This document shows positions 37,435 through 64,000 of a stretch of DNA of 64,000 nt, piece after piece; position 1 is the stretch's first letter; each line of letters starts with the position of its first letter. The stretch covers positions 124,001-188,000 of the forward strand of contig NHZP01000065.1 of assembly GCA_003313425.1 (NCBI GenBank), in the 5' to 3' direction. Made by a program: the position numbers and the translations under genes. This DNA is from Pseudopyrenochaeta lycopersici (lineage: Eukaryota > Ascomycota > Dothideomycetes > Pleosporales > Pseudopyrenochaetaceae). The notes under the pieces were generated by a model that saw only the letters and a list, made by a program, of their open reading frames with translations, searched no databases and was not told where the DNA came from.

Positions 37435-38373
37435 CCCTAACTTCAAGACTACAAATCCTTAGCAAAGCCCCTTTTACTATACAAGCATTAACAGTCGCGG
37501 CCATTTTAGCGTTTACTACAGGCATAACTGCTAATACTGCACCTGTTATCCTCTTAGAGGGTCTCTCTAATAGCCTCCTGTCTAGGCTTCTAACCACGGT
37601 TAGCCTTAATGTACCTGCAGGTGTTAATAATCTGTAGGTCCCACACAGCAAACAATATACTAGGTTACTAACAGCATCAGGAGCCAGACAATCCGAGACT
37701 AGAGTTCTAAGGAGGCCCAGGCAGTTGCAAAGAGAGAGCTACAGCGAGGCTGGGGCCGCGGTGGACGTGGCCGGGCGGGTCGTGTTAGCAGTGTTGTTAA
37801 GGGTGTTAGTAAGGGGATTGGCAGCGCAGCAGACGTAATTTTCATCAGGCAGACGATCCAGGACCAGACATCTTAAGAGGCGCAGCTAGTGGCGAAGAGA
37901 GAGCTACAGCGAGGCTGGGGCCGCAGTAGACGTAGCCGGGCGGGTCGTGTTAGCGGTGTTGTTAAGGGTGTAACTAAAGGTATTGGCGGGGTAGCAGATA
38001 GAATCTTTATTAGACAGACGATCTAAGACCAGACGTCTAAGGAATCGCAGCTAGTTGCAAAGAGAGAGCCACAGCGAGGCCGAGGACGTGGTAGGCGCGG
38101 GCGAGCTGGTTGTATTAGCGACGTCGTTGAGGGCGTAACTGAAGGTATCAGCGGTATAGCAGATACTATTTTCATTAGGCAGACGATCCAAGACCAGACC
38201 TCTCAGGAATCGCAGCCAGTTGCGAAGAGGGAGCCGCAGCGAGGCCAGGGACGTAGTAGACGCAGGCGAGGTAGTCGTGTTAGCGGTGTTATAGAGGGCG
38301 TAAGTAAGGGGATTGGCAGCGCAGCAGACGCAATTTTCATCAGACAGACAATCCTTCCCGAGAAGCTATAACT
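37435..38373 (+). pseudogene. Spliced gene with four 55-aa repeats, RIP-damaged
   Basis: Exon 1 (to 37633) reads PFTIQALTVAAILAFTTGIT (secretion-signal-like) and VILLEGLSNSLLSRLLTTV. A 47-bp intron (37634-37680) has GTAGGT, a perfect TACTAAC branch site (37666-37672) and CAG. Exon 2 (37681-38373) is then in frame and consists of four exact-length 55-codon repeats (QTIQDQTSQESQPVAKREPQ, then an RGRGRRGR-like basic block, then SGVxxGVxxGIGxxAD). In-frame stops: one or more TAG/TAA at Gln. The last repeat runs into the start of the 5.4-kb helicase unit at 38353, which supplies the stop, so the gene may be truncated there. Confidence 0.55.
37686..38345 (+). repeat. Four tandem 165-bp coding repeats
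   Basis: AGACRATCCR recurs at 37686, 37851, 38016, 38181 and (start of a fifth) 38346, a constant period of 165 bp. Units differ mainly by transitions. Confidence 0.9.
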
Positions 38374-43081: not shown

Positions 43082-43666
43082 GAAGAAGAAGTAGAGAGCT
43101 AGAAATAGAAAAGTAAGGGAAATTAGAGATTTGTTTCTGTTAGGGATGGAAGTTTTATTTAAGTAAAGATAGTAATTTAAGTTAAGAGAAGGGCTTACGT
43201 GAGAGAAAAAGGGTTAGGGGTAGGCCTGTCTAGTGCAGAAAAAGAAGTAGAGCTTTATAGAGAAGTAGAAAGAAAGAAGAGAAAGAAAAACCTGGCTGAA
43301 CCGCTTAGGTTAGGGAGAGAAGAGGTAGTAAGGAGAGAAGGAAGAAACCTAGCCGAACTGCTTAGGTTAGGGAGAAAGAGGAGAAAGAAGAGAAAGAAGA
43401 AACCTGGCTGAACCGCTTAGGTTAGGAGAAAGAAAAGAGAGCGCCTGTAAACTGCGAAATAGCAGAGAGAGGGGAGAGGATTTAGGTTTGGGCCGGATTG
43501 AAAGTTAGAAAGGCGGAAACTAACTTACGTCCCTGTTAGAACGGAAGTTAGGGGCTGTAAGGTGTTAGAAGATAAAAAACAAACGTAGGAAGACAATTAC
43601 TAGGTTTAGGAGATAGTTTAATAATTAGATAACTGCTTAAGGCTAGAAAGAGCGCGTACCTAGGTT

Positions 43667-43757
43667 CCCGTTATCTGTAACCCGTAACGGCGACCTGTAA
43701 CGGCGACCCGTAACAGCGACCCGTAACAGTAACCCGTAATAGCAGTCTGTAACTGCA
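43667..43757 (+). repeat. CCCGTAACRGCGA minisatellite, end of unit B
   Basis: Seven to eight degenerate copies of a 12-bp word CCCGTAACGGCGA/CCTGTAACGGCGA. The same array closes unit C. Confidence 0.8.
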
Positions 43758-44003
43758 ACCTTCCTGAGAAGCTATAACTTTTCGTACCGGAATTTCGCCG
43801 AGTTAGGCTTAACGCTAGGGTTTCTCATACCCAGAATGGTAATCTTAGGGGCTCTCTTATTTCAGCGAAATGCGGACATTATAAATACTTTTTTATTAAA
43901 CTTTTAGTACAAATATTACTTAATGGCTTCTAAAGAATATTATTTATTAGTTTGCAGCCCTGTCTAGTAACGTATATGTTGCGATAGGATTAGGATTTGC
44001 CCC

Positions 44004-48487: not shown

Positions 48488-49076
48488 GAAGAAGAAGTAG
48501 AGAGCTAGAAATAGAAAAGTAAAGGAAATTAGAGATTCGTTTCTGTTAGGGACGGAAGTTTTATTTAAGTAAAGATAGTAATTTAAGTTAAGAGAAGGGC
48601 TTACGTAAGAGAAAAAGGGTTAGAAGTAAGCCTGTCTAGTGCAGAAAAAGAAGCAGAGCTTTATAGAGAAGTAGAAAGAAAGAAGAGAAAGAAAAACCTG
48701 GCTGAACTACTTAAGTTAGGGAGAGAAGAAGTAGTAAGGAGAGAAGGAAGAAACCCGGCCGAACCGCTTAGGTTAGGGAGAAAGAGAAGAAAGAAGAGAA
48801 AGAAGAAACCTAGCCGAACCGCTTAGGTTAGGAGAAAGAAGAGAGAGCGCTCGCAAACCGCGAAATAGTAAAGAGAGAGGAGAGGATTTAGGTTTAGGCT
48901 GGATTAAAAGTTAGAAAGGCGGAAACTAACTTGCGTCCCTATTAGAACGGAAGTTAGAGGCTGTAAGGTGTTAGAAGATAAAAAACAAACATAGGAAGAC
49001 AATTACTAAGTTTAGGAGATAGTTTAATAATTAGATAACCGCTTAAGGCTAGAAAGAGCGCGTACCTAGGTTCCCG

Positions 49077-49165
49077 TTATCCGTAACCCGTAACGGCGAC
49101 CTATAACAGCAACCCGTAACAGCGACTTGTAATAGTAACCCGTAATAGCAGTCTATAACTACAAC
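49077..49165 (+). repeat. CCCGTAAC-type minisatellite, end of unit C
   Basis: Counterpart of the array at 43667-43757, more worn by transitions. Confidence 0.75.
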
Positions 49166-52100
49166 CTGTTTTTTAGTAGAGAGAGAGGAATAAGAGGTAG
49201 AGAAAGCGTCTGATTTAGGAGAAGAGGAGGGTAGGTAGACTCGTTAGTGCAGAAAAGAAGTTAAGCGCAGCGGAACAAGAGGGTAAGGGTAAGGAAGAAA
49301 GGGTAAGTAGAGGGCCCGTTAGCTGTTATAAAGAGAAGAGAGGGCAGCTGTAAAGCGTAGAAGAAGGGGGCGTAGTATAAAATTCTGTTAGGGTTAGAAC
49401 TAAAATTAGAAAGATAACACCGTAGAAGAAGAGAGATACGCGTAAGGTGTTACACGAAGAAGTATTATAAGAAAGAGAGAAGTATATAGAGAACCGCTTA
49501 GGTTAGGAGATAAATAAGATAGTAAAAGGCAACCGCTTAGATTAAAAGAAGAAGACAAGAAAGAAGAAGAATAGTAGGAAGATAAAATTATAGACAAAGA
49601 AAAGATATAAGAAAAGAGAAAGAGAAAGAGAAAGAAGTAGATAAATATATTAGTAGAGTTATTAGTATAGTAAATTAGTAAAAGTAAAAGTAAATAAAAA
49701 TAAAAATAATAAATTAATAAAATAGTACAAGGGTTAGAGATAAGGTAAAACGTGTTAGATTTAAATAGAGAGAAACGCATAAATAGTATAGTAGTAATAG
49801 AGTAGGTAGAGATAAGGGTAAGTAAGAGGAAAATAAGAATAAAAAAAAATATAAGAATAAGGTAGAATTTAGAGAATAAAAGTAGATAGAGAAGAGATTA
49901 TTATATAGGATAGGGAGTTATTAAAGAAGAAGAAGAGTACGTAGAAAGAAATTATAACAGAATTAGAGTTTAATAGATTAAAAGTTAGTAAAGAGTAATT
50001 TTTAAGGTAGAGGTATAGTATTTTAAAGTAGAAGAAGAGAGTAGAAAAGTGTATAGAGAAAAGAAGTAGAGAGTTAGTAGAAGTTAGAAGGAGAAGAAAA
50101 AGAGTTATTAAAGAAAAAAGAAAAGTAGGATTAAAGTTTTTAATTTATTTAGGTTTAGTGTTAAAAGTATTTAGAGTTAAGAAGAAGGTAGAAGAGGAAA
50201 AGAGTTAGAGTAAGAGAAGTTTAGTAGTATAAAGAGGAGTAAAAAGAGGGGAGGAGGGGAAGATTAAGTTTTAGAAGAAGTAAAGAGTAAAGAAGACGAG
50301 AGTAGAATTTAAGGTTATAAGGGTAGTAGGAGTAAAAAGAAAAAGTAGAGGATAGTATAAAGGAAAAGAGTTAAAAAGAAGGAAAGGTAGAGGTTTAAGA
50401 AGAGTAAAAAAGAGAAGGAGGTAGAGAGTAAAGAGTAGGAAGGGAGAAAGTAGAAGTAGGGGGGTGTAGAAGAGTAGGAGAGGGTTAGAGTTAAAAGAAA
50501 GAGGTAAAGGAGAAGGTTAACGAGAAGAAGAGAAGGTCAAAGAAGGTAAAAAAGGTTAGTTAAAAGTAGGTATAAGTAAAGAAGGGAAAGAAAGAAAGGT
50601 AGAAGTTTAAAGAGAAAGAAAGTTATAAGAAGAGTAAAAAAAAAAGTAAAAAGAGAGTTTTAAAAAGAGAAAAAAGAGTAAGGAGGTAAAAGCAGAAGTT
50701 AAGTAAAAAGAAAGAAAAGTAGTAAAGGGTTAAAGTTATAGAAAGGGTAAAGATTATAGATATTAAAAAGGATAGAGTAGGAGGAGAGGAAGGATAAGTA
50801 TTAGAAGAGGAGAAAAGAGGTTAAGAGAGTGTAAAGGTAAGAGTTTAGAAGGTAAAGAGAGTTAGAGTAGTAAGAAATATTAAAGGGGTTAGTTAAAAGT
50901 AAGAAAAGAAAAGTAGAAGGTAAAAAAAGTAGAGGAGTAGAGTTATAAAAGTAGTAGAAAAAAGAGAAAAAAAGAGTAAGAGAAGAGTAAAAGGGGAGAA
51001 AGAAAACAAGAAAAGAGTTAGTAGAAGAAAAGAGAGTTATAGTTTTAGAAGAGAGTAAGGGAGAGAGAGAGAGAGTAAAAAAAGAGAGGGGTAGAGTTTT
51101 AGAAGAGAGAGAGTTAGTTAGAAGGTTAAGGAGGGGTAGAGGGGGAGTTAAAGGGAGAAAGAGAGAGTAAAGTAAGTAGAGAAAAAAAAGGAGAGGATTA
51201 GCAGGAAAATATAAGTAGAGAAGGGGGTTTAAAGAGAGAAAAGAGAAGAGAGAAAAGAGAAGAGAGAAAAGAGAAGAGAGAAAAGAGAAGAGAGAAAAGA
51301 GAAGAGAGAAAAGAGAAGAGAGAAAAGAGAAGAGAGAAAAGAGAAGAGAGAAAAGAGAAGAGAGAAGAGAGAAGAGGTAGAATAGAAGTAAAGGAAGAAA
51401 GGAGAGAGTTAGGGTTTAAAGAGAAAGAGAAGGTTAGAGTTATAAGAAGAGGGAAGTTTAAGTTTAAGAGAAAGGAAGGAAGTTATAGAGAAAAGGGAGA
51501 AGAAGAGGAGGGAGAGGGAATAAGAAGAAAAGGGTGAGTAAGTTAGGGTTAAGAAGGTAAGTAAGGTAAGGTAAAGTAAGGGTAGAGAAAAAGGGGGGAG
51601 GTAGAAAGTAAGGAAGAGAGAGTTAGGGTTAAAGAAGAAAAAGGTAGAAAGAGAGAGTAAAAAGGGTTAGAAAGGGTTAGAGTAAGGGTAGGTAAAGTAG
51701 AGAAAGAGAGGTAAAAGGTAAAAGGTAAAAGAGAGGGAGTAGAGAGAGTAGTAGAGAGGAGAAGGGAAAGAAAGAAGAGGTTATAGTAAGAGTTAAAAGG
51801 GGATTAAAGGTATAGAAGAGGTAAGAGTAAAGTTAGAAGAGTAGTAGAGGGTGTAAGGAAGGTAGGGTTAAGAAAGAAGGTAGTAAGGGTGAGAGAAAGG
51901 AAAAGAGTAAGAGGGTTAGGGTTTTAGAAGAAAGAGAGGGTTAGGGGTTAAAAAGTAGAAAGAGTAAGAAAAAGAAAGGTTAAAAGGAAAGGAGAAGTAA
52001 GGGAAGTTAAAGAGTTAAAAAGGAGTAAATATAAAGAAAAAGGGAGTAAAGAGTAGGGTTAAGTAAAGGAAAAGAGAAAAAAAGTAGAAAAAGGGTAGGA

Positions 52101-54560
52101 GAAAGTAAAATAGGTAGAAAGAAAAAAAAAGAGTAGAGAAGAGTAGTTTAGAAGTTAAAAGAAAGGTTAGAGAGTTTAGAAGTAAAAGTTTAGAAAGATA
52201 GCATAAGTATAGGTAGAGAAGTAAAAGAAAATATTAGGAAGAGGTAAGAGAGAAAGAGTAAGAGGAAAGAAAAGTTAGGTAAGAGAGGAGTTAGGGTTAT
52301 AGAGGAGGTTAAAAAGGTAGAAGGTTAAAAAAGAGTAAAGAGGTTAAAAAAAGAGTAGTAAAGAGGTAGAGTTAGTTAAATTAAAAGTAGGAGTAAGTTT
52401 TAGGAGTAGTAAGGAAAAAAAGAAAGAGGATGTTTAAAGAGGGAAAAAAGGGTAAAGAGATTAAAAAGTAAGTAAGATAAAGAGAAAGAGTTATAGTAAA
52501 GAAGTAGGGTTTTTTTTTAGAGAGAGTAGAGTAGGGAAAGTTAAAGGAAAAGAAAAAGAGAAAAGAGAGGTAGTTAGAAAAAAGTAAGAGGAAAGAAAAA
52601 GAAAGGGGGGTGTTAAAAAGAGAGTTAAAGTAGAAAGAGAGGGGTAAGAGAGGAGGGTTTAGAGTAAAGGAAGGATTAAGGTTAGAGTATAAAAAGAGGG
52701 TTAGGGTTTTAGAGGAGAGAAAGAGTTAGGGTTTTAAGAGAAAAAGAGTAGGGGAAAAAGAGAGAGTTAAAGAGAGAAAGTAGAAAAAGGGGTTTTTTTT
52801 AGTAAAAAGAAGAGTAGAGTAAAGTAAAGTAAAGAAGGGGAGGAAAAGTAAGAGTAAAGGGAAAAAGTAGAGGAAGTAGCAAAAGTGTAGTTTAAGTAAA
52901 AAAGGAGTAAAAGTATTAAGAGTAGAAAGGGGTTTAAAGAGGGTAGTAAGTAGAAGAAGTAAAGAAAAAAGTAAAGAAAAAAGTAAAGAAAAAGAGAAGA
53001 GAGTTGTGTTAGAAAGGTAGAAAGGGTAGAAAGAAGGTAGAAAAGTAAGAGTAAAGAGTAGGAAAGGGAGGGAGAAAGAGAGAGGGTAAGGGAGAGGGAG
53101 AGAGTAAGGGAGAGGGTGAGGGTTTTAGGAGAAGGAGAGGGTTAAGGTTTTAAGAAAAGGAAGAAGTAAAGGTGTTAAAGAAAGGGAAGGAGTTAAAGAG
53201 AGAGGGGGAGAGAAGTTAAGTAGTAGAAAGAAGAGTAAAAAGAGAGTAAGGAAAAAGTAAGGTGTTTAAGGGAAGTAAGGTAGTAGGGAAAGAGTAAAGA
53301 AAGAGAAGAAAAAGAAAGGGTTTTTTTTTTAAGAAAGGAGGGTAAGAGTAAAAGAGGAAGAAAGTATAAGAGAGAGGTTAGAGTTATAGGAAAGGGTAAG
53401 GGGGTTAGTTAAAAGAGAGAAAAGAGGAGTAAAAGTAGAGGAAAAAGAGAAGGTAAGAGTAAGAAGAAGAAGTAGAGAGAAAGTAAAGGAAGTTTAGAAA
53501 GGAAAGTAAGTTATAAAAAGAAGAGAGTAGAGAGTAGGTATAAGTGTAAAAAGGGAAGTAAAGAAAAGTAGGAGGGAAAAAAAGTAGAGAGGTAAAGTTA
53601 TAAAAGTAGTAGAAAAAGGGAAAGAAGAGTAAAGGAAAAAAAGAGGAAAGTAAGTAAAAAAGAAAAAAGTTAGGGAAGGGAAGAGGAGGTAGAAGAAAAG
53701 GGTTATTAAGAAGTAAAAAAGGGTGTTAAAAAGGAAGAAAAGAGTAAGAGAGAGAGAGAGAGGTTAAAAGGGGTAGGAGTGTAGTAGAGTAAGAAAGGGA
53801 GGGTTAAGGTTATAAGAGAAAGAGGAGGTTAGAGTTATAAGAAGAGAGAAGTTTAAGTTAAAGGTAAAGGAAGGAGTTGTAGAGAAGAAGGAGAAGGATA
53901 GGAAGGAGAAGAAAAAGGTAAAGAGGAGGAAAGAGAGGGTAAGTAAGTAAGGGAAGGTGTAAAGAGTTGGAGTAGAGGTAAAGAAAAAGTAGAGAGGTAG
54001 AAGGTAAGAAAGAGAGTTAGGGTTTTAAGAGAGAGAGGGTTAGGGTTTTAAGAAAAAGAAAGGAGGGGAAAAGGAGAGAGTTAAAGGGAGAAAGTAGAGG
54101 AGGGTAAGTTTAAGAGAATAAAGGGTAGAAGTATTAGAAGGAGTAGAAAAAGGTTTAAAAAGGGTAGTAAGTAGAAGAAGTAAAGAAAAAGAGGAGAGAG
54201 TTTTAGAAGAAAGGTAGGAAAGGTAGAAAGAAGGTAAAAGTAAGAGTAAAGAGTAGAAAAGAGAGGGAGAAAGTAAGAGTAAGGGTAAGAGAGAGAGTAA
54301 GAGGGTTAGGGAGAGAGTAGGAGGGTTAGGGAGAGAGTGGGAGGGTTAGGGTTTTAGGAGAGAAAGAGTAAAGTTTGTAAGGGAAAGAGAAGGAAAAGGT
54401 TATAGAAGAGAAAGTAAAGGAAGGTTAGAAAGAGGAAAGGGTAGAGAAAAGGGTAAGAAGAAAAAGAGAAAGAGGAAGAAAGGGAGGGGTAAAAAGTAGA
54501 GTAGGGTTAAAAAGGAGGAAAGGTAAAAAGAGTTAAGAGTAGGAGTAGGGAAGAGGGAGG
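49166..54560. repeat. C-depleted purine-rich tract
   Basis: More than 5 kb in which C is almost absent from this strand, while A, G and (mostly in TTA, TAG, GTT words) T remain. From about 49900 on whole lines contain no C. It is built from degenerate AAGAGTAAG, AGGTAGAG and GGGTTAGGG-like words. No coding frame is credible. Possible origins are listed under findings. Confidence 0.9.
51232..51372 (+). repeat. 14-bp homopurine tandem repeat
   Basis: About ten copies of GAAAAGAGAAGAGA, pure A/G on this strand. Such a mirror-like homopurine tract can form triplex DNA. Confidence 0.85.
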
Positions 54561-54993
54561 AAGTAGAGGATAAGGGAGAGGGAGAGAGTAAGGGAGAGGT
54601 AGAGGGTGAGGGGGAGTAAGGGTGGGGGTGAGGGTAAGGGAGAGGTAGAGGGTAAGGGAGAGTAAGGGTGAGGGTGAGGGTTAGGGAGAGGTAGAGGGTG
54701 AGGGAGAGTGAGGGTTAGGGAGAGTAAGGGTTAGGGAGAGGTAGAGGGTTAGGGAGAGGTAGAGGGTGAGGGAGAGTAAGGGTAAGAGTGAGGGTGAGGG
54801 AGAGTGAGGGTTAGGGAGAGGTAGAGGGTAAGAGTAAGGGAGAGGGTTAGGGAGAGGTAGAGGGTGAGGGAGAGTAAGGGTAAGGGTGAGGGTGAGGGAG
54901 AGTAAGAGTGAGGGTAAGGGAGAGGGAGGGTAAGAGTAAGAGTAAGAGTGAGGGTTAGGGTTTTAAGAGAGAGAGAGGGTTAGGGTTAGGGTT
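54561..54993 (+). repeat. Degenerate telomere-like GGG repeat tract
   Basis: Dense GGGTGAGGG, GGGTAAGGG, GGGTTAGGG and GGGAGAGGT words, ending in perfect telomere repeats (54977-54993) at the first array unit. Strong G-quadruplex potential. Orientation TTAGGG on + puts the telomere to the right. Confidence 0.85.
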
Positions 54994-55009
54994 CCTTTCA
55001 CTAGAAAGT

Positions 55010-55140
55010 TGTCAAGTGGTCAGGAGCCTTGTGCTCGGGACCACGACGGCTTTACATCTAAGCAGGGCCTCGAGTGGAACGAGAAGCGAAGCGTTAAACC
55101 ACCTGGGGTTTAGGGCCTCTGCCCCCTGTAAGCGCTAGCC
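55010..55140 (+). ncRNA. Conserved structured region, unit 1
   Basis: Helix A: GTGGTC..GACCAC enclosing GAGC CTTGT GCTC. Helix B: TAAACC ACCTGG GGTTTA. Helix C: GCAG..CTGC around GGGCC. Compared with the other units the arms change in a compensating way. Whether it acts as RNA or as folded DNA is not known. Confidence 0.55.
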
Positions 55141-55230
55141 TTTTTGTCACGTGGAGGCGGGAACACATGGAGTGGGCAGTATGTCTCTTTCTACGGAGTA
55201 GTGTATCTTGGCGGAGCTTGAGGTAGGTAG

Positions 55231-55266
55231 TATTTATATGCGCGCTCTGGCCGATATGTAGCGCGC
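55231..55266 (+). promoter_or_regulatory. Rep promoter: TATA box and palindrome
   Basis: TATTTATAT (55231-55239) is followed by a 7-bp inverted repeat, GCGCGCT (55240-55246) with AGCGCGC (55260-55266), just upstream of the Rep ATG. Initiator proteins often bind their own promoter, so this is a candidate operator (inference). Confidence 0.5.
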
Positions 55267-55283
55267 TATCGTGGAGCGATATT

Positions 55284-56462
55284 ATGGCGGAGCCTACAGT
55301 AGAGACGTGCGATATTTCTACGGTGGGACCGTCGTCCAGGCGGACATCTTTTGCGTCTTTGTTTTCGTGTAGTACGCAAGGAAGTGCGTCGAGCGTAGTC
55401 GATGACCTCCCGGATGGGTGTGGGGAAAGGGAAGCTTTCGCGTTGAGGGTCAACGTTGTTCTTGTAACGTGGTCACAGAGTCGTCTGGAGGACGCGTCCG
55501 AATTTTACAATCTTCTTCAGGAGCGGATGCCTCCTGGTACGGAGATTTACGGTTGTCAAGAGCGCCATGAGGATGGGAAGCCTCATTATCACGCAGTGTT
55601 TCGGTTCACGCGTCGGACGAATTGGGTGGATGCACACCAACATTTTCGAATTTATCTGTCTGATGGCACAGTGGATACAGAGGCTATTCGGTTCTCGGTG
55701 CCTCGCCCGTATCAGCGGGAGTCTGATTTTTTGGAAAACACACAGAATTACTGTTTTAAGTATGATGATTCGGTGTTTTTTGGGACGAGGATCGAGTCAC
55801 TCAGTAGTTCTGAGTCTCGGAAGCGCAAGTTCGCTGAGGTGCTGGTGGAACCTGATTACATTAAAGCGAAACGGATGTTGATGGAACTGGATCCTATGGG
55901 ATTTATCAAGTTTTATAACGCGTACTCGTCCTATCTGGCTAACGAGAAGAAAGGCACGCCTGGACGAGGGTGGGTAGACTCTGGGGAACCCCTGAAGCAA
56001 TGGCGTGTCCCGGTCGCCATGGAGGATTGGCGGAAAAGTTACATTGGGGGGTCATATAAGGGTAGACCTGTCCCCCTCATTCTTGTTGGTCCATCGAGGC
56101 TAGGAAAGACAGAATGGGCTTTGCGTGCAGGGCCCAAGCCCATGGCCATGTCCAATCAGTGGAACCTTGGTAATTATGACCAGGATGCGTCGCATCTCGT
56201 GTTAAACGACATCGATTTCAGCAATTTTGGGTCTGGTAAGTACCGGTATTGGCGAGAAATACTTGGTGGGCAGGCTTGTATTGATGCGCACGATCGGTAT
56301 ACGAAAACACGGAATTTGAGTTGGGGATTTCCAGTCATTGTAACGTGCAATGCAGATAATGACCCTCGGAAAGTTCCTGACATTGCGGCGTATCTGAAGC
56401 ATGCGCCTTGTGTTGTGGTTGAGTTGGCGGATCTACTGTATGTAGATGACGATCTAGCGTAG
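55284..56462 (+). CDS. rep: CRESS-type replication initiator (Rep): HUH endonuclease plus SF3 helicase
   Basis: Intact 392-aa protein expected to nick the origin, bind its 5' end through a Tyr, and unwind DNA for rolling-circle replication in the nucleus. HUH motifs: I VLVTWSQ (59-66), II PHYHAVFRF (100-108, two His), III NYCFKY (155-160, Tyr156 with Lys159). SF3 helicase: Walker A GPSRLGKT (269-276), Walker B HLVLNDIDF (304-312), motif C IVTCNAD (352-358). Length and order match geminivirus/genomovirus-type Reps; motif I is unusual (TWSQ), so family is open. The basic stretch SRKRKF (178-183) may be a nuclear signal. Single exon, no stop, no RIP-type damage. It is the only Rep in the visible array and would have to serve the other units in trans. 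Confidence 0.93.
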   Translation: MAEPTVETCDISTVGPSSRRTSFASLFSCSTQGSASSVVDDLPDGCGEREAFALRVNVVLVTWSQSRLEDASEFYNLLQERMPPGTEIYGCQERHEDGKPHYHAVFRFTRRTNWVDAHQHFRIYLSDGTVDTEAIRFSVPRPYQRESDFLENTQNYCFKYDDSVFFGTRIESLSSSESRKRKFAEVLVEPDYIKAKRMLMELDPMGFIKFYNAYSSYLANEKKGTPGRGWVDSGEPLKQWRVPVAMEDWRKSYIGGSYKGRPVPLILVGPSRLGKTEWALRAGPKPMAMSNQWNLGNYDQDASHLVLNDIDFSNFGSGKYRYWREILGGQACIDAHDRYTKTRNLSWGFPVIVTCNADNDPRKVPDIAAYLKHAPCVVVELADLLYVDDDLA

Positions 56463-56531
56463 ATAGATAGAATGAAAAATGGCTATGTCCATTTTCGTGG
56501 TGGCGGTGCGGGTCGCGCACAGGCCAGAACT

Positions 56532-56596
56532 CAACTTTTCTAGTGTGGCGCAGCCTATATATGATTAGGGTTAGGGTTCCTTTCACTAGAAAGTTG
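56532..56596. other. Junction stem-loop between units 1 and 2, with two telomere repeats in the loop
   Basis: Left arm CAACTTTTCTAGTG (one extra T), right arm CACTAGAAAGTTG (56584-56596). The loop holds TATATATGATT, then AGGGTT twice (56567-56578), then CCTTT. Confidence 0.8.
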
Positions 56597-56725
56597 TCAA
56601 GTGGTCAGGAGCCTTGCGCTCCTTACCCTTGCCACTTTACAATTAAGCAGGGCCGGCGAGTGGAACGAGTAGCGAAGCGGTAGTCTTGAATAAGACTAGG
56701 GCCTCTGCACTTAGTAAGCAACACA
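56595..56725 (+). ncRNA. Conserved structured region, unit 2
   Basis: Helix A: AAGTGG (56599-56604) with CCACTT (56632-56637), inside it GGAGC CTTGC GCTCC. Helix B: TAGTCTT GAAT AAGACTA (56681-56698). Helix C: GCAG (56647-56650) with CTGC (56705-56708). Confidence 0.6.
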
Positions 56726-56774
56726 GCGCACGGACGTAGCGCGAGATCATCTGATCTGTGGGTTGCCACATTCT

Positions 56775-56896
56775 TCAGATTTTTTATCTGATTGGTCTAT
56801 GGATATGGAGGCAGGGAGTGTGCAGGACCCTGCTAACTAGGGACTAACACATCTTGGCGGGGCCAAGGGTCTGGGAGACAGATTGAGATATATAAG
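56775..56896 (+). promoter_or_regulatory. Promoter of unit 2 gene
   Basis: Hairpin CAGAT..ATCTG runs into ATTGGTCTATG (inverted CCAAT box, 56791-56795). TATATAAG at 56889-56896 is about 110 bp before the ATG. Confidence 0.65.
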
Positions 56897-57003
56897 AGAG
56901 GGGAGCGCCCTCCTATCTCTAATATCAACGGAGGTGTGCTTTGTTCGGTTCAGTTGTAGTCACTACATAGTGAACGTATTGTACGTAAGTAGTAGCGGTA
57001 GCT

Positions 57004-57781
57004 ATGGCGATGGAGTCGTTGCACGGAGTTGGCGTTTTCAGAGAACGTAGTATATTGTGTAGTAACAAGATGCCGGCGGGTACGTCGAGCGAAGCGTTTG
57101 CAGGGAGTGAAGAGCAGATGGAATGGGTGCGGAGTCACATTCCCGGTAGGTACTTCTTTCTCCTCGGGAAGTTAGTATCCTTTAACTGACACTGGGACAG
57201 AGTTTGTGGAACAAGGTGTTTCTCTTACATGTCATGTAAACCCGTGGGGGGCACGGTGTTGGTGGTCAACGAAGGAGAGTGGGAAGCTCTCTCGCGAATG
57301 TGTAGAGGAACAGCACAGTCCGTGTCTTAATGATTACGAAGTGATTGGCGCGGGCGGCGACAGGAGACGGGCGCTCCTTGTGTTCAAGGTGGACATCTTG
57401 GTAGGAGATGAATTGCAGAGCAATGTTGCGTTTGCGCAACTCTCTTTAGAGACACTGGAGGTGTTCCTGCAGGATGTTTTACCTCGTGTCTACTCGCTTG
57501 AAGAGAATTCGGTGGATACCTATATTGTGGACGATTTGTTCCACTCGTTAAACGTCGGGTGTTACTCTACGACGGTAGGGTGCGGATGCACGCGTTCTGA
57601 TATTTGTATGAAGTGCGCGCCGGTGAGGATAGAGCGTGCTAGGTTTATCGTGCTCCACAGATTTACCTCTGTTTATCCGTTTGGCTTGGGGAGGTGGTTT
57701 GATGGAATCAGCGATGCAGCAGGGACTGTGTACCCGTCGGGAAAAAACTGGTTGAGTTGTTCCCATAGCCGTGTTCTGTAG
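57004..57781 (+). CDS. Array Cys-motif family protein, unit 2, two exons
   Basis: Family not recognised. Exons 57004-57145 and 57201-57781 joined over a 55-bp intron (GTAGGT..GGACAG, phase 1); 240 aa. Exon 1 is variable and ends MEWVRSHIP, a block found before the intron in other units. Exon 2 begins EFVEQGVSLTC, then WWSTKESGKLSRECVEEQH, a hydrophobic-rich middle (LLVFKVDILV), the motif CGCTRSDICMKC (CxC-x5-CxxC, zinc-site-like) and a closing block RWFDGISDAAGTVYP..NWLSC. No signal peptide or membrane segment. The conserved splice phase across five units shows that the gene is used by a host with a spliceosome. Role unknown; a structural, regulatory or replication-accessory protein are all possible. 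Confidence 0.85.
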
Positions 57782-58124
57782 AGCACGATGTATTTTGTCT
57801 GGCCTGGAGGAGCTGCATTGAGGTAGACATAGTAGAGTTTTATTAACGATTTTATTGTAAAGGATGCAGAGGAAACGATAGGTATATGTGTGGAGAGCAA
57901 TTAGCGAGCATAGTGGTAATGCAGGTGTGGACCTGTTATGGCCGGCAGGTATTGAATTTACATTACGGGGTGTTGTAACGGAGTGTTGTTGTAGGACAAC
58001 CCAAAAAAAAACGGTAAGTCAAAAAAAAATCCCAAGTTTTTTTGGCTAAGTCCGATTTTGCTGTGGCTGGAGGGCCATGCTGGGTCACGTTTGCTGTGGC
58101 GCGGGGAGCGCACAGGCCCCGACT

Positions 58125-58178
58125 CAACTTTCTAGTGTGGCGAAAAGCCTATATATGATTCCTTTCACTAGAAAGTTG
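58125..58178. other. Junction stem-loop between units 2 and 3
   Basis: Perfect 13-bp arms CAACTTTCTAGTG (58125-58137) and CACTAGAAAGTTG (58166-58178). Loop contains a small GGCGAAAAGCC hairpin and TATATATGATT joined directly to CCTTT. Confidence 0.85.
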
Positions 58179-58305
58179 TCAAGTGGTCAGGAGCCTTGCG
58201 CTCGGGACCACGACGGCTTTACTCTAAGCTCTGGCCGTGACTGGAGGGAACAGCGAAGCGTTAAACCACCTGGGGTTTAGGGCAAGAGACCCCGGTAAGC
58301 AAAGC
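58177..58305 (+). ncRNA. Conserved structured region, unit 3
   Basis: Same fold as unit 1 (GTGGTC/GACCAC with GAGC/GCTC; TAAACC/GGTTTA), but helix C is CTCT with AGAG instead of GCAG with CTGC. Confidence 0.55.
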
Positions 58306-58352
58306 ATGACATGGATATGTGAGTCAGATGACCATGGGTTGCCACTCTTTTT

Positions 58353-58467
58353 ATCAATCAATCATTTGATTGGTCTATGAATATGGACGTAGGGACTAGG
58401 CAGTCCGCTGCTCTCTAGGGACTAGCGTGTCTTGGCAAAGAACAGGATGGATATGCCTATATATAAT
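58353..58467 (+). promoter_or_regulatory. Promoter of unit 3 gene
   Basis: Hairpin CAATC..GATTG leads into ATTGG (58369-58373); TATATATAA at 58459-58467, about 60 bp before the ATG at 58528. Confidence 0.65.
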
Positions 58468-58527
58468 AACAGAGAATCTGTTGCTACGGAGTGTGTTTTT
58501 ATAGAACACTTCTTTTACGATACTGTG

Positions 58528-59322
58528 ATGGAGTCACACGCTGGAGGCAGTAACGCGGTTATGGACGTTGGTGTACTGGGTGTCCACGTACGAAGTTGGC
58601 TGGACAGCCTTGTTGAAGGGGCTACTGTTCGTGTATTGTCACCATCTGACAATCACATGGAGTGGGTGCGGAGGCACATTCACAGTAAGTGGATACTTCC
58701 TTTCTTCTAGTTAGGGGGAGGTCCCCCAACTGACAGAGTAGTAGCGTTGGCGGAGTGCGGCGCGTCGGTCACGTGTGATGTGAAGTTCAATGGGGTTGTA
58801 TCTTGGTGGATCACCAAGGAGAGCGGATGCCTTCCTACCCAGTGTGTGGAGGAACAGCACACGGGGTGTTTAAACGCTTATAAGGAACTGTGTGCACGTA
58901 GTGTTCCTAGGCAGGCACTTCTCATCTGGAAGGTGAGTTTGTTGAGGGACTTTACTGTACGTAGTATGGTTGTCTTTGCAGAGCTGTCAGTAGAGACATT
59001 GGATGTGTTGGCGCGCAGTTTGCTGTGCCATCTTCATACACGGCGTGGAGACCTCGTGCAGGCGGAGGAGGTCGATACGCTCTTTGACGCACTTGATCAA
59101 GGGCGATTTTCCAGTAGCGTTGGATGCGGGTGCACCTGGACTATGGAGTGTGATGACTGTGGACTGCTGTATGAAGGGCAGCCACGTTTTACTCGTTGTG
59201 ATACGTTTAGTGGGATACGTTTAGGCGGAGAGAATAGGTGGTTTACTGGGCTCAGTGACGGAGCCGGTGTTGTAAAGCCTTCTAATCTCCCTTGGCTTAG
59301 TTGCGGACGCTCTAGGTTGTAG
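58528..59322 (+). CDS. Array Cys-motif family protein, unit 3, two exons
   Basis: Paralogue of the unit 2 protein. Exon 1 58528-58684 starts MESHAGGS (an upstream ATG at 58447 lies ahead of the TATA box and is not used) and ends MEWVRRHIH. Donor GTAAGT at 58685; acceptor most likely AG at 58738 (58741 is an in-frame alternative), so exon 2 is 58739-59322, about 246 aa. Blocks: ECGASVTC, WWITKESGCLPTQCVEEQH, CGCTWTMECDDC (CxC-x5-CxxC), RWFTGLSDGAGVVKP..PWLSC. Function unknown. Confidence 0.83.
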
Positions 59323-59717
59323 TCTGTACTCTTGTTATGCAAGAGAGTACAGTTATGACGTTAAGTGTAGTTCTTTTGGTAAGGTTGCTGTTGTAGAGTT
59401 ATTCTAAACAGTGGGTTACGAATTAAAAGTAAGTACTTGTATGCATTATGTTTTTAGTTTTCTTTTCTTTCAAACTGAAAAAAATAGGAGTTGGGTAGAG
59501 CAATGTATACTGAGTATATTTTATAGGAGTAGAATAATAGAGGGTTTGTGACGCCGAGCTTAGTCATCGAGGGTGGGAGCCCTTCAGATGGAACATCGAA
59601 TCTGCAGAAAAATTGGCTAAGTCCAATTTCCCTGTGGCTGACAGTCACGCAGGGTCACGTTAGCTGTGGCGCGGGGAGCGCAGACATGGGTCATGTTGGG
59701 GCACGGGCCCCCTCCGA

Positions 59718-59760
59718 CAACTTTCGAGTGCTATATATGATTCCTTTCACTAGAAAGTTG
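59718..59760. other. Junction stem-loop between units 3 and 4
   Basis: Arms CAACTTTCGAGTG and CACTAGAAAGTTG (one mismatch, 13 bp); the shortest loop type, CTATATATGATTCCTTT. Confidence 0.8.
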
Positions 59761-59895
59761 TCAAGTGGTCAGGAGCCTTGCGCTCCTTGACCCCTGACAC
59801 TTTACTGTAAGCAGAGCCTACGACTGGAGGGAGTACCGAAGGGTTAGGCTTTTTAAAGCCTAGAGGCGCTGTCCCCTGTAAGCAAAGCAGAGCAC
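59759..59895 (+). ncRNA. Conserved structured region, unit 4
   Basis: Helix A AAGTG/CACTT with GGAGC/GCTCC. Helix B TAGGCTT TTTA AAGCCTA. Helix C CAG-n-GCC with GGC-n-CTG. Confidence 0.6.
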
Positions 59896-59934
59896 GGACT
59901 GTGTGGGTCAGATGATCACTGCTTGCCCACTCTT

Positions 59935-60049
59935 TTTCAGAACGTCAGTCTGATTGGTCTATGAACATGGACGCAGGGACGGGGCACCACATTGCCTGCT
60001 AGGGACTAGGTGCTCTTGGCGTTGCGCAAGGTCTGGAGGGACATATAAG
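59935..60049 (+). promoter_or_regulatory. Promoter of unit 4 gene
   Basis: CAGA..TCTG hairpin into ATTGG (59953-59957); TATAAG at 60044-60049, about 105 bp before the ATG at 60154. Confidence 0.65.
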
Positions 60050-60153
60050 AGTCTTTTCTTGTCTTTATATCATCCATGGATGTGGTGCTTGTGTAGCATT
60101 AGCGTGTAGCGCTTGTCTTCTTCTCTTGTTCCTAGGGAGTATATGTGATAGCG

Positions 60154-60952
60154 ATGGTGTCGCGGCCTGGACAAAGGTTTCTGGTAGGTACGGTTGGTAG
60201 ACCATCCGTTGTATTTTGCCCGTACACTTTACGTGTAGGTGAAAGAGGGGTTCCTTCTGTGTGGAGCGGTAATACTTTTCAGGCTGTGAGGGATCACGTG
60301 CCCCGTAGGTGTCTTGATCTTTTTACTGTAGAAGTTAAAAACAAGATCATCTGACGTAGGTGTAGTGTTTGTAGAACGCGGTGTTTCGATTACCTGCCAC
60401 CTTGCACTCAATGGCGAGGTGCGTTGGTGGTGCACCAAGGAGAGCGGGAAGCCTCCTCAGCAGTGCGTGGACGAACAACACGCATCTTGTCTAGAGGACT
60501 ACATGGAGTTTTGCGCAAGTGATGGTTGTCGATGCGCACTCTTTGTGGTAAAGGTGGACGTTGTCCAGAATGGCGAAGTGCGGAGCCTTGTTGCGTTTGC
60601 GAAGCTTTCTGTGCAGACATTCGATGTGTTTCTGCAGCGGGTGCTGCCTCTTATTGTCTTGCCGGATGGGCAGGCTGCGGATGCTACTCTTATTAGTATG
60701 TTGTTCGTTCTGTTGGACCTGGGGGGTCTCTCTAGCGGCTCGTTATGCGAATGCCATTTACAGGCTGTGTGCAAGCCGTGTAGCGAAGTGTTGGGGGTTC
60801 ACTCCAGGTTTGAACGTTGGGATGCGTTTTCTTGTGTATATCCAGATAAAATGTCTGGTTGGTTTGCTGGGATCAGCGATGCCGTAGGAAAAGTACACCC
60901 GGGAGGCGAAGACTGGCTGTCATGTCCTCGTCAGCGAGTCTTACGATGTTGA
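60154..60952 (+). CDS. Array Cys-motif family protein, unit 4, two exons
   Basis: Paralogue. Exons 60154-60304 and 60366-60952; intron 61 bp (GTAGGT..GTGTAG, phase 1, CTGAC branch-like site); 245 aa. Exon 1 starts MVSRPGQRFLVG and ends AVRDHVP. Exon 2: LFVERGVSITC, WWCTKESGKPPQQCVDEQH, LLPDGQAADA-like Asp/Gly block (VLPDGQAAD), CECHLQAVCKPC (CxC-x5-CxxC), GWFAGISDAVGKVHP..DWLSC. Function unknown. Confidence 0.85.
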
Positions 60953-61283
60953 TATGTGACACTGGTAGGTGTTTGCGGTTGGGCGCATGCTGATGTAGGG
61001 AGCATCGTGTTTTCTACTTCTCGTTGGAAGTATACAGATTTGTATTATTTATATGTTATTGTATTCTGATGTGTTTACAGTACACAGTGTGGGATGTAAA
61101 TGGGTTGGTAGCGTAGGCTGAATTTGTTAATGGTGTGAGCCCTCCCTGGGATGGAATACCAACTCTCAAAAAAAAAATTGCGTAAGTTCATTTTCCCTGT
61201 GGCTGGAAGACAGGCTGGGTCACATGGGGGTGTGGCTCGAGAGAGCGCAGACATGGGTCGAGTTGGGGCACGGGCCCCTCCGA

Positions 61284-61355
61284 CAACTTTCTAGTGTGGC
61301 GTTTTGCGTATATATGATTAGGGTTAGGGTTAGGGTTCCTTTCACTAGAAAGTTG
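61284..61355. other. Junction stem-loop between units 4 and 5, with three telomere repeats in the loop
   Basis: Perfect arms CAACTTTCTAGTG (61284-61296) and CACTAGAAAGTTG (61343-61355). The loop reads TATATATGATT, AGGGTT three times, CCTTT. Confidence 0.85.
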
Positions 61356-61485
61356 TCAAGTGGTCACCAGCCTTGCGCTGGTTACCCTGGACACTTTACC
61401 TGTAAGCTCTGGCCGTGACTGGAGGGAACAGCGAAGCGGTAAACTAGAATTAGTTTAGGGCAAGAGACCCCGGTAAGTAACACGA
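61354..61485 (+). ncRNA. Conserved structured region, unit 5
   Basis: Helix A AAGTG/CACTT with CCAGC (61367-61371) and GCTGG (61377-61381), changed on both arms relative to units 2 and 4. Helix B TAAACTA GAAT TAGTTTA. Helix C CTCT/AGAG. Confidence 0.6.
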
Positions 61486-61531
61486 AGCACGGACTGTGCA
61501 GGTCATCTGATCTCAGGTTACCCACATTTTA

Positions 61532-61644
61532 TTCAATCGATGCTTTGATTGGTCTATGAATGTAGACAACATGGAAGGGGCACTCTGTTGCTCCCTAGGG
61601 ACTAGTGTGTCTTGGCAAGGACAGCATGGACATCAAAATATAAG
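61532..61644 (+). promoter_or_regulatory. Promoter of unit 5 gene
   Basis: CAATC..GATTG hairpin into ATTGG (61548-61552); ATATAAG at 61638-61644. Confidence 0.65.
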
Positions 61645-61829
61645 AGGGGGAGGCCTTCCCCCGCTCACGGAGTGTTCTCTACTATGTAGTAACAACGGTA
61701 CATTACGATTGTATCGCTTGTGTTAGTTTATGGTGTATGCCATTAGGGTTTGGGAACTGGTTTCGTCCCTAAAAACGAAACAATAGATCATTGAATAGCA
61801 GGGAGCTGCGTTCCTTTGGTTAAACAGGT

Positions 61830-62653
61830 ATGTCCTTTTCAAGGCAGCTTGGAGAGCTGGTTGCCCTGTGTGAGCAGATCGGCTGTTCTGTTCTGGAGGC
61901 GGACAGGGCGTTACTGTCGTGGCTTCGGCATTATGTGTGTGGCTCGATAGGCCACGTTGCCGCTGTGGAGACTGCTGACTTGCGGTTTTTATGGGAGCAT
62001 GTGCATGGTGTGCGCTCTCCATTTCCTTCTTGTAGGGAGGGACTCTGGCTAATACCCTTGTAGTGCTGGTGGAGCAGCACATTTCAGTCACGTGTGTCTT
62101 GCTGGATGGCAAAGTATCCTGGAGGCTTACAGAGGAGACCGGACGGGTTCCTTACATCTCCAGTGGTGTTGGAGTTGAACACCCTCGTCACCCTCGTGTT
62201 ATGGTACGGACTGCGTATGCTGTCGTGAAGCTTAGTACACGTTTCTGGGCGGAGACTGTGCAATGGAGTGAAGTGCTTGTTAGCGAACTTAGTGGTCATT
62301 CGCTTTGGGTGATTGAGCATCGGGTTGTCCCCATGCTTGTTGGACTTTTTGGAGAGCAGGCGTGCGGTGTAGAGGCACCGCTTGGGAGATATGCAGTGAC
62401 GCTGTGGGTGCGTCTTGCACAGAATGTTTTTGCGTTGCTGGAGGCTGGTGCCTTTTCCAGTGGTTGTTTGTGTAGTTGTACGATTTGTGGAGTATGCGAT
62501 AGTTGCATAACGAATTGCAACCAGGCAGGGCTGTTTGTAGAGCAGTGGAGGTTTTGTGGATTGTTTCCTCTCGGCGAAGGACACTGGTGGAGCGGCGTTA
62601 CGGATGCTGTGGGAGATATTCGCAATAGCATCAACTGGTTGTCGTTAAGTTGA
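61830..62653 (+). CDS. Array Cys-motif family protein, unit 5, most diverged, two exons
   Basis: Exons 61830-62007 and 62064-62653; intron 56 bp (62008-62063, phase 1; the donor GTGTGC is weak but keeps the family's position); 255 aa. Exon 1 starts MSFSRQLGELVALCEQ and ends FLWEHVHG. Exon 2 begins VLVEQHISVTC, then WRLTEETGRVP in place of WWxTKESGxxP, and lacks the QCV..EQH..CL block. The CSCTICGVCDSC motif and HWWSGVTDAVGDI..NWLS end are kept. A later ATG-less leader from the TATA box is about 190 nt. Perhaps a specialised paralogue. Function unknown. Confidence 0.78.
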
Positions 62654-62898
62654 CTGACAGCTGTTATTATGGGGCAGCAGTACTAATTTTGTAAGAGTGG
62701 GAACATTGGAACAATGAGAAGTTATTATTGCGCAGCTTCATTGTTAAGGGTGGGAGCCCTTCAGATGGAACGTCGAACCTTCAAAAAAAAATGCGTAAGT
62801 CCATTTTCCGTGTGGCTGACGGTCATGCAGAGTCACGCTGGGTTGCTGTGGCGCGTTTTGCGCACAGACGGGTTGTGATGGGCACGGGCCCATTCCGT

Positions 62899-62940
62899 CA
62901 ACTTTCGAGTGTATATATGATTCCTTTCACTAGAAAGTTG
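62899..62940. other. Junction stem-loop between units 5 and 6
   Basis: Arms CAACTTTCGAGTG (62899-62911) and CACTAGAAAGTTG (62928-62940), one mismatch; loop TATATATGATTCCTTT with no telomere repeat. Confidence 0.8.
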
Positions 62941-63075
62941 TCAAGTGGTCGGCAGCCTCGCGCTGCCTACCCTTGCCACTTTACACATAAGCATCGCCCG
63001 CGAGTGGAGCGAGTACCGAAGGGGTAGACTACTTGTAGGCTAGGGCCATGCACTTAGTAAGCAACGCAGAGCACG
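62939..63075 (+). ncRNA. Conserved structured region, unit 6
   Basis: Helix A AAGTGG/CCACTT with GGCAGC (62951-62956) and GCTGCC (62962-62967). Helix B TAGACTA CTTG TAGGCTA (one mismatch). Helix C GCAT/ATGC. A third variant at each helix. Confidence 0.6.
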
Positions 63076-63116
63076 GACAGTGCGGGTCAGATGACTCTTC
63101 TTTGCCACTCTCTTCT

Positions 63117-63224
63117 TTCAATCAATGCTTTGATTGGTCTATGAACGTAGACAGATGGAATGGGCACATTATTGCCTGCTAGGGACTAGTTACTCTTGGC
63201 GGTGCCATAGATAGAGGTATATAG
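63117..63224 (+). promoter_or_regulatory. Promoter of unit 6 gene
   Basis: CAATC..GATTG hairpin into ATTGG (63133-63137); TATATAG at 63218-63224, about 65 bp before the ATG. Confidence 0.65.
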
Positions 63225-63289
63225 TCACAACAGAGGATCTGTGTTCATGGATATGTTTTACAATATGTAGTTTTTTTACTACACATGCG

Positions 63290-64000
63290 ATGGATTCGCA
63301 ACCTGGAGAGCAGGCAGTGCCATCACCAGATAGTGGTGCAACAAAGTTGTTATCGCTTGTGGAAGCGTTAGAAGAAGGGAGTTCTTCCGCATTGTCCGTA
63401 GGGACACCCATGGAACAGCAGACTGTGAGGGATCACGTGCCTGGTAAGTGTCAAAGAAACAGAAGACACGGAAGAAGTTGGGCCCTTCCCAACTAACCTC
63501 ATCACAGTGCTCCACCAGCTCTGTGTCTCTATCACTGTGCATGTGCCATTGTCGGGGGGACAATCCTGGTGGGTGACCAAGGAGAGTGGGAAGTTGCCTC
63601 GTCAGTGCGTTTCTCAGAAACACACGGAGTGTTTAAAGCATCACAACGAACTTTGTGCACGGGGTGGCACGCTGAAGGCGCTTCTTGTCCTCAAGGTGGA
63701 TACGTTGAACATCGGGGAGCTAGAAAGCTCTGTTGCCTTCGCGGTGCTTTCTGTAAAGGCACTGGATGTGTTGGTGGAGCGCATTCTTCCTCTGCTCACA
63801 CTGCCGGATGGGCAGGCTGCGGAGGGTATTGTAGTCGGTATGTTATTTGATCGACTGTGCTTTGGGTACTATAGTACGCGGGTCGACTGCGCGTGTACCT
63901 TCTCCACACAGTGTGAGCCTTGTGCGTATGCGCATTATTGTTCACCGAGATTTCTCTGGTTAAATACATTTTCCGGTGAGTGGCCGCCTGGAAAGTTTGA
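63290..64000 (+). CDS. Array Cys-motif family protein, unit 6, partial
   Basis: Exons 63290-63443 and 63508 to beyond the window; intron 64 bp (GTAAGT..ATCACAG with an ACTAAC branch-like site, phase 1). Exon 1 starts MDSQPGEQAVPSPDSGATK and ends QQTVRDHVPG. Exon 2: VLHQLCVSITVH, WWVTKESGKLPRQCVSQKH, LTLPDGQAAEG, CACTFSTQCEPC (CxC-x5-CxxC). The C-terminal GIS/TDA..WLS block lies past the window end. Confidence 0.83.

Follow-up and report, generated by a model that had tools for sequence, protein, structure and literature searches.

The 64-kb stretch of DNA analysed here (the window; C65:124001-188000 of a 62.7 Mb genome assembly in 188 contigs) ends in a tandem head-to-tail array of units of near-constant size, the first of which directly abuts TTAGGG repeats at position 54994, and this raises the question of what kind of element is built of such units and resides at chromosome ends. 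The features described below point to a many-component DNA element in which one replication initiator protein (Rep), an HUH endonuclease with a superfamily 3 (SF3) helicase, is predicted to act in trans on an estimated 75 kinds of unit, replicating and mobilising them and joining them to the telomeric G-strand at TT^, and we consider this reading probable.

In the window (all features on the + strand) the telomeric repeats (..AGGGTTAGGGTTAGGGTT, 54975..54993) are followed by unit 1 (type 0, 54994..56566), unit 2 (type 25, 56579..58160), unit 3 (type 4, 58161..59742), unit 4 (type 45, 59743..61319), unit 5 (type 26, 61338..62922) and unit 6 (type 27, 62923..64000), the last of which is cut by the window and measures 1565 bp in the contig. 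The initial annotation had described six head-to-tail units near 1.58 kb, and the five complete ones agree with this, being 1573, 1582, 1582, 1577 and 1585 bp long without the telomeric inserts of 12 nt (AGGGTTAGGGTT, 56567..56578, in the loop between GATT and CC) and 18 nt (AGGGTTAGGGTTAGGGTT, 61320..61337, between units 4 and 5). It had also rightly placed an intact Rep in unit 1 (55284..56462, an open reading frame (ORF) of 392 aa) and a member of one protein family in each of units 2 to 6, with private-family open frames at 57176..57778 (main exon), 58711..59319, 60332..60949 and 62036..62650 in units 2, 3, 4 and 5, respectively, and a private-family gene in unit 6. There are more than these six units: the array continues past the window and reaches position 291258, where contig C65 ends with a truncated unit and a terminal TTAGGG cap (69 units were parsed outside C65:284001-285000). 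The description of the units as identical at both ends stood for the outermost bases only; the next ~185 nt form a structured, mosaic common region (hereafter the head; 54994..55179 in unit 1, with equivalents opening the other units).

The repertoire of units was determined using 116 complete units from fetched DNA, with a type defined by at least 97% identity over more than 93% of the length. This resulted in 61 types (27 singletons, 23 doubletons, and 11 larger), the copies of which were 99-100% identical whether on the same or on different contigs, and 100% identical throughout in 25 of the 34 multi-copy types. The Chao1 estimate was 74.6 types for a set of 106 units and 60 types, which leaves out contigs fetched for a Rep match except C65 and C166; restricting the set to the array on C65 (69 units, 48 types) gave an estimate of 81.2 types and the comparison of C65 with the other arrays one of 76.0, and the total number of unit types is estimated at ~75. 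Unit length was 1577.7 +/- 10.5 bp in 115 of the 116 units (the excluded one has 1319 bp), a constancy that suggests a replication or packaging limit. Types 10 (C65:260829, 1562 bp) and 40 (C166:20516, 1543 bp) were typed as distinct, and their family frames are identical (223/223 residues; synonymous divergence, dS, of 0).

The order of the units is shuffled: of the ordered pairs formed by 97 adjacent units and their neighbours a single one is repeated (random mean 0.50), and three pairs are self-adjacent (random 1.9). Rolling-circle concatemers of one circle would yield runs of the same type, and block duplication, which was dropped, would yield shared unit order; no such runs, shared order or collinear blocks between the sampled arrays were seen. 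Repeat-induced point mutation (RIP) was dropped as the source of unit variation, with a TA/AT index of 1.08 across the 116 units, many of them near-identical, a second index of 1.06, and hence no RIP signature; RIP may no longer be active, or else it does not reach the arrays. Positions 28-36 kb of the window, by contrast, have a RIP-like index (1.92).

Genome-wide, the 28-nt unit start was matched 839 times (340 forward and 499 reverse; up to 3 mismatches), and its abundance is not due to chance, because the reversed 28-nt pattern gave no match at the same tolerance. Pattern searches found 851 unit starts that directly adjoin the end of the preceding unit (up to 1 mismatch) and 40 directly after telomere repeats (exact pattern), which together amount to ~890 units on 22 contigs. 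A genome-wide search for the exact 18-nt unit start with a preceding base other than T found none, and all 152 starts counted in the fetched DNA (overlapping loci counted twice) were preceded by ATGATT, AGGGTT or GGGGTT. Thus no unit came to light away from arrays and telomere repeats. For the five contigs longer than 1 Mb on which arrays were recorded (C4, C5, C10, C18, C23), all six arrays were oriented to the nearer contig end, and in all six the telomeric G-strand and the plus strand of the units ran in the same direction. The array on C18 is complete, with telomere repeats, 11 units, telomere and contig end, and it has no Rep match. Some telomeric ends may be without an array: C17, C95 and C110 have long telomere tracts (among the first 100 of 131 matches), and the exact-pattern search gave no telomere-to-unit junction for them. 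On C61 (301352 bp) unit starts and copies of Rep and RAD52 are spread from ~1 to 275 kb, with no telomere-to-unit junction among those matched genome-wide; the contig may consist entirely of units, some 190 of them, or may be a small chromosome built from them.

Because units were cut at CCTTTCACTAGAAAGTTG, this unit start is by definition common to all of them. The opposite end reads TATATATGATT in 58 of the 61 sampled types, a close variant of it in two, and an untrimmed telomere insert in one. Within the unit start, CACTAGAAAGTTG is the reverse complement of CAACTTTCTAGTG near the unit end, and a 13-nt inverted repeat spans the junction in all 61 types (13/13 nt in 38 and 12/13 in 23). In a circle or an array the two arms can pair into a stem whose loop, of 15-27 nt (45 nt in one type), contains the junction, as between units 1 and 2, where the upstream arm (CAACTTTTCTAGTG, 56532..56545) lies at the end of unit 1 and the downstream arm (CACTAGAAAGTTG, 56584..56596) at the start of unit 2. 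A stem with such a loop is the layout of the origin of circular Rep-encoding single-stranded DNA (CRESS) replicons.

Junctions took the forms GATT^CC between units, GGGTT^CC from telomere to unit, and GATT^AGGG from unit to telomere. Most unit junctions are without telomere repeats, and where these are present they are placed exactly between GATT and CC. The 54 matches to telomere-unit joins (gaps of 0-9 nt; 33 distinct starts) all read ..TT^CC, one of them after GGGG rather than GGG. Among the unit-to-telomere joins 17 of 18 read GATT^AGG. An exact pattern gave 17 unit-to-telomere joins, at least five of which are no more than 200 nt away from a contig end (C18, C77, C99, C118, C119). A search of IMG/VR did not find the junction DNA.

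The head (the first ~185 nt) is a mosaic of helices. For 20 chosen pairs in an alignment of 58 distinct rows (59 of the 61 types), 92.4% of the cells were paired, compared with 79.3% in shuffles and at most 48.2% in slid versions, a comparison in which the helices are favoured over the slid controls as they were picked by eye from the alignment. Two-sided changes occurred in 14 of the 20 pairs and covariation was 0.374 vs 0.147, in head sequences that are not independent since types share mosaic heads. RNAalifold by itself gave a partial structure for the head and almost none for the tail. The mini-hairpins GCGAAGC, CCGAAGG and ACGAAGT recur in the heads; since GCGAAGC is very stable as a DNA hairpin, the head hairpins would suit a single-stranded DNA (ssDNA) signal, with RNA as the alternative. 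The head matches no known RNA family, as Rfam scans gave nothing at gathering score in the window and a single chance-level match (E 0.71) in 54980-63300.

An intact HUH plus SF3 Rep was found on one unit type only (type 0), which is present in nine identical copies in nine places on seven contigs; a second unit type encodes an HUH-only Rep. The intact protein has HUH endonuclease motifs I-III with the catalytic tyrosine and a helicase domain with SF3-type motifs, and the longest open frame in any sampled type is that of the Rep (411 aa, with the Rep ORF at 392 aa). Among 14 Rep relatives, Gemini_AL1_M matched 10 (best 6e-10) and Gemini_AL1 six at E<=0.01. The Rep is of the geminivirus/genomovirus type. 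Homologs occur in Pyrenophora tritici-repentis, P. seminiperda and Colletotrichum sojae. No Rep relatives were found in IMG/VR by a profile search and by searches with two relatives, and a search of phage records gave one chance-level match only. Two Rep copies near contig edges are interrupted, one on C166, which lacks 8 bases but is otherwise the same as the intact copies, and one on C99; these were dropped as biological pseudogenes, because read error is as likely.

One further unit type encodes a RAD52 (PF04098, 97.7 bits vs a cut-off of 20.3, E=8e-28; PDB RAD52 chains, E=6.5e-20), in 13 identical copies distinct from a probable host RAD52. A private protein domain is common to 38 of the 61 types. 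Searches for relatives of this family among 5.8 billion proteins gave 6037 candidates, none at E<=0.01, and comparison of its predicted fold with PDB and BFVD gave best E-values of 0.25 and 0.27 with TM-scores of at most 0.27 among the matches listed, a negative that is weak evidence as the model has a confidence score (pLDDT) of 72. The median ratio of nonsynonymous to synonymous differences per site (pN/pS) was 0.52 over 138 family pairs, and the family appears to be largely under purifying selection. The family domain is absent in 23 of the 61 types, 20 of which are without a recognised gene (16 of these 20 scanned, without a convincing match). In type 8 an F-box match (7.5e-4) fell below the cut-off, and its product is termed F-box-like only. 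Neither a capsid gene nor a reverse transcriptase was recognised when 26 open frames, drawn from 26 of the 61 types, were scanned with Pfam, and PHROGs gave chance-level matches only for six frames of the window. The LxCxE motif, a feature of nanovirus Clink-like proteins, was found in 4 of 417 open frames and treated as chance. A role in interaction with the host is probable for the private-family proteins and for the F-box-like one.

The scheme proposed here builds on features read directly from the DNA, namely unit size, the stem, junction placement, head covariation, the nine identical Reps, the shuffled order and the start contexts. Rep would nick GATT^CC at the same base at which junctions change partner, with ATT^ as in CRESS origins, which are nicked at ..ATT^. 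A unit lying between two origins, as in adjacent units, could be released as a single circle, and Rep would mobilise all units in trans as rolling-circle molecules. It would then join the 5' CC end to the 3' ...GGGTT of telomeric single-stranded DNA, and the 3' ...GATT end, which would naturally prime telomerase, may either be extended by that enzyme or be ligated to AGGG. Arrays could grow unit by unit if this reaction also took place at GATT^CC between units, and annealing of single-stranded intermediates is the probable role of the RAD52 that the element encodes. Since Rep is present on few of the units and missing from at least one complete array, mobilisation in trans is the simplest interpretation. 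The initial annotation had proposed such action in trans, which follows naturally from the C18 array of 11 units, resolved at both ends and without a Rep match, as well as a multipartite-like Rep element resident at telomeres, which gained support from the ~75 estimated types and ~890 units with an intact Rep found on nine only; its term fungal is likely apt, given that the named Rep homologs are from Pyrenophora and Colletotrichum.

Several observations weigh against this reading. One unit-to-telomere join (on C131) is out of phase, and the innermost fetched unit on C5 is preceded by unique non-telomeric sequence with a single TTAGGG. Truncated units lie under telomere caps at some contig ends (e.g., C65, C5), and breakage and healing therefore also shape the arrays. 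Further head pair types were not above shuffles (29 vs 26.8; 76/500). The Rep itself remained under the Pfam gathering cut-offs of 24 (15.0 and 19.8 bits for the Gemini_AL1 families) and the matches of its helicase part include not only SF3 folds but also MCM and other AAA+ ones. Two private-family pairs are near neutral (ratios of nonsynonymous to synonymous divergence, dN/dS, of 0.96 and 0.78) at a median pN/pS of 0.52. Homologous recombination between common regions could partly make the same junctions and shuffle units, telomerase alone could partly make the unit-to-telomere joins, and the evidence considered here is genome sequence. As a separate observation, the join on C5 (locus L024) looks as if a broken end had been minimally healed and a unit then added.

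An endogenised multipartite ssDNA mycovirus with a capsid, for which the units would be proviral segments and the arrays a latent form, is an unlikely alternative. The Rep type would fit, the equal unit sizes resemble a packaging limit, and the types without a family domain or recognised gene leave room for a capsid. Fungi do host tri- and tetra-segmented ssDNA viruses, namely Fusarium graminearum gemytripvirus 1 with three segments and Botrytis cinerea ssDNA virus 1 with four segments of ~1.7 kb (PMC10731770), and the likeness extends to several equal-sized units with common regions, mostly one gene per unit, a geminivirus-type Rep on one unit, and a host that is fungal there and likely so here. 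Those systems have 3-4 segments including a capsid and were found as viruses, whereas here ~75 types are estimated, no capsid was recognised in the types scanned, the units are chromosomal at telomeres, and IMG/VR yielded neither a Rep relative nor the junction sequence. Equal-sized components, a shared origin stem-loop and one Rep were found here as integrated units. Nanoviridae likewise have one gene per component, a shared origin region and one Rep for the components, and we know of no telomere integration among them. They differ in their plant hosts, their virions, and their component number, the extreme multipartite case (taken to be nanoviruses) having 6-8 components or segments (PMC5680193), far below the estimate here.

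A rather improbable alternative is that ordinary recombination driven by telomeres (break-induced replication, unequal exchange) amplified a subtelomeric gene family of the host, in which a Rep had been captured and was carried along. In Magnaporthe, tandem amplification does occur with interstitial telomeres as its boundaries (PMC8381367, PMC7367193), most sampled types belong to one diversified family largely under apparent purifying selection, and gene conversion could explain identical copies. Against this, the origin-like stem is present in every sampled type, the helices of the head show covariation, the limits of units fall on one base, size is constant despite differing gene content, collinear blocks between sampled arrays are absent, and identity is complete throughout in most multi-copy types. 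An assembly artefact or contaminant is hardly credible: highly identical repeats are hard to assemble and the C166 edge copy of Rep is such as a read error would give, the C99 edge copy being interrupted too, but the arrays lie at the ends of contigs longer than 1 Mb with a uniform orientation, the window itself passes from host-like genes into the array, and the C18 array has telomere repeats on both sides.

The many-component Rep element preferred here also resembles known mobile elements in part. The geminivirus-like transposon of Tuber melanosporum shares the fungal genome, a geminivirus-like Rep gene, inverted terminal repeats and recent amplification; it has an interrupted Rep ORF, two transposase ORFs, 37-bp terminal inverted repeats and interspersed copies, and is not presented as telomeric or multi-component (Liu et al., 2011; PMC3198968). 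The units described here have one main gene each and 13-nt subterminal repeats, and were found in arrays or adjacent to telomere repeats only. MoTeR elements of Magnaporthe insert in TTAGGG repeats and form head-to-tail arrays of single orientation with telomere tracts between, and they and the FoTeR elements of Fusarium share the placement at chromosome ends. Both are retrotransposons, unlike this DNA element with an HUH Rep, in which most junctions lack telomere repeats and the frames scanned held no reverse transcriptase. Helitrons follow an HUH-type rolling-circle logic and insert without target duplication; they have a superfamily 1 (SF1) helicase and TC...CTRR ends and are inserted at A/T, in contrast to the 392-aa Rep with SF3-type motifs, the CC...GATT ends, the telomere target and the many components found here. 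The parts are thus known from these nearest kinds (multipartite ssDNA mycoviruses, nanoviruses, geminivirus-like fungal transposons, telomeric retrotransposons), none of which combines all features; the element would work like a multipartite rolling-circle replicon and fits no family known to us.

The sequence flanking the array is itself unusual. Just before it, positions 50001-54950 of the window (4950 nt) hold 8 C only, with interspersed TTAGGG-like motifs, and a strand-asymmetric subtelomeric run of 2113 nt (52881-54993) is without any C. C-poor flanks (0.1-2.8% C in 1400 nt) also precede arrays on C4, C10 and C18, and this subtelomere has the look of telomeric G-strand that has decayed. 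Two copies of a composite repeat form another subterminal repeat family (43271-43760 and 48665-49150), made up of a 55-bp unit with GGTTAGG and then 13/26-bp AACCCGTAACAGC-like repeats, and a tandem repeat of 165 bp (~4 copies, 79% matches) lies at 37685-38354.

Searches of the open-licence literature found no report of a Rep element at telomeres, of such a component number, or of one with its own RAD52; the telomere-colonising transposons found there are retroelements, and the multipartite ssDNA systems have up to eight parts. We tentatively entertain, at somewhat less than even odds, a new eukaryotic mobile system of ~75 mostly one-gene circles at telomeres, in which a single HUH Rep would paste units onto the 3' overhang, telomerase would cap them, the element would supply its own RAD52, and most components would encode the private family. 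If true, no known replicon would be more highly divided, chromosome ends could be built by a non-retroviral mechanism, and a Rep element targeting telomeres would be a second route to chromosome-end extension. It would make testable the use of the telomeric single-stranded overhang as a target by HUH enzymes. That a Rep element carries a RAD52 suggests maintenance by annealing, and the private family, for which no relatives were found, is a large unexplored set of proteins. For theories of multipartite genomes and of trans-replication, ~75 components served by one Rep would be extreme.

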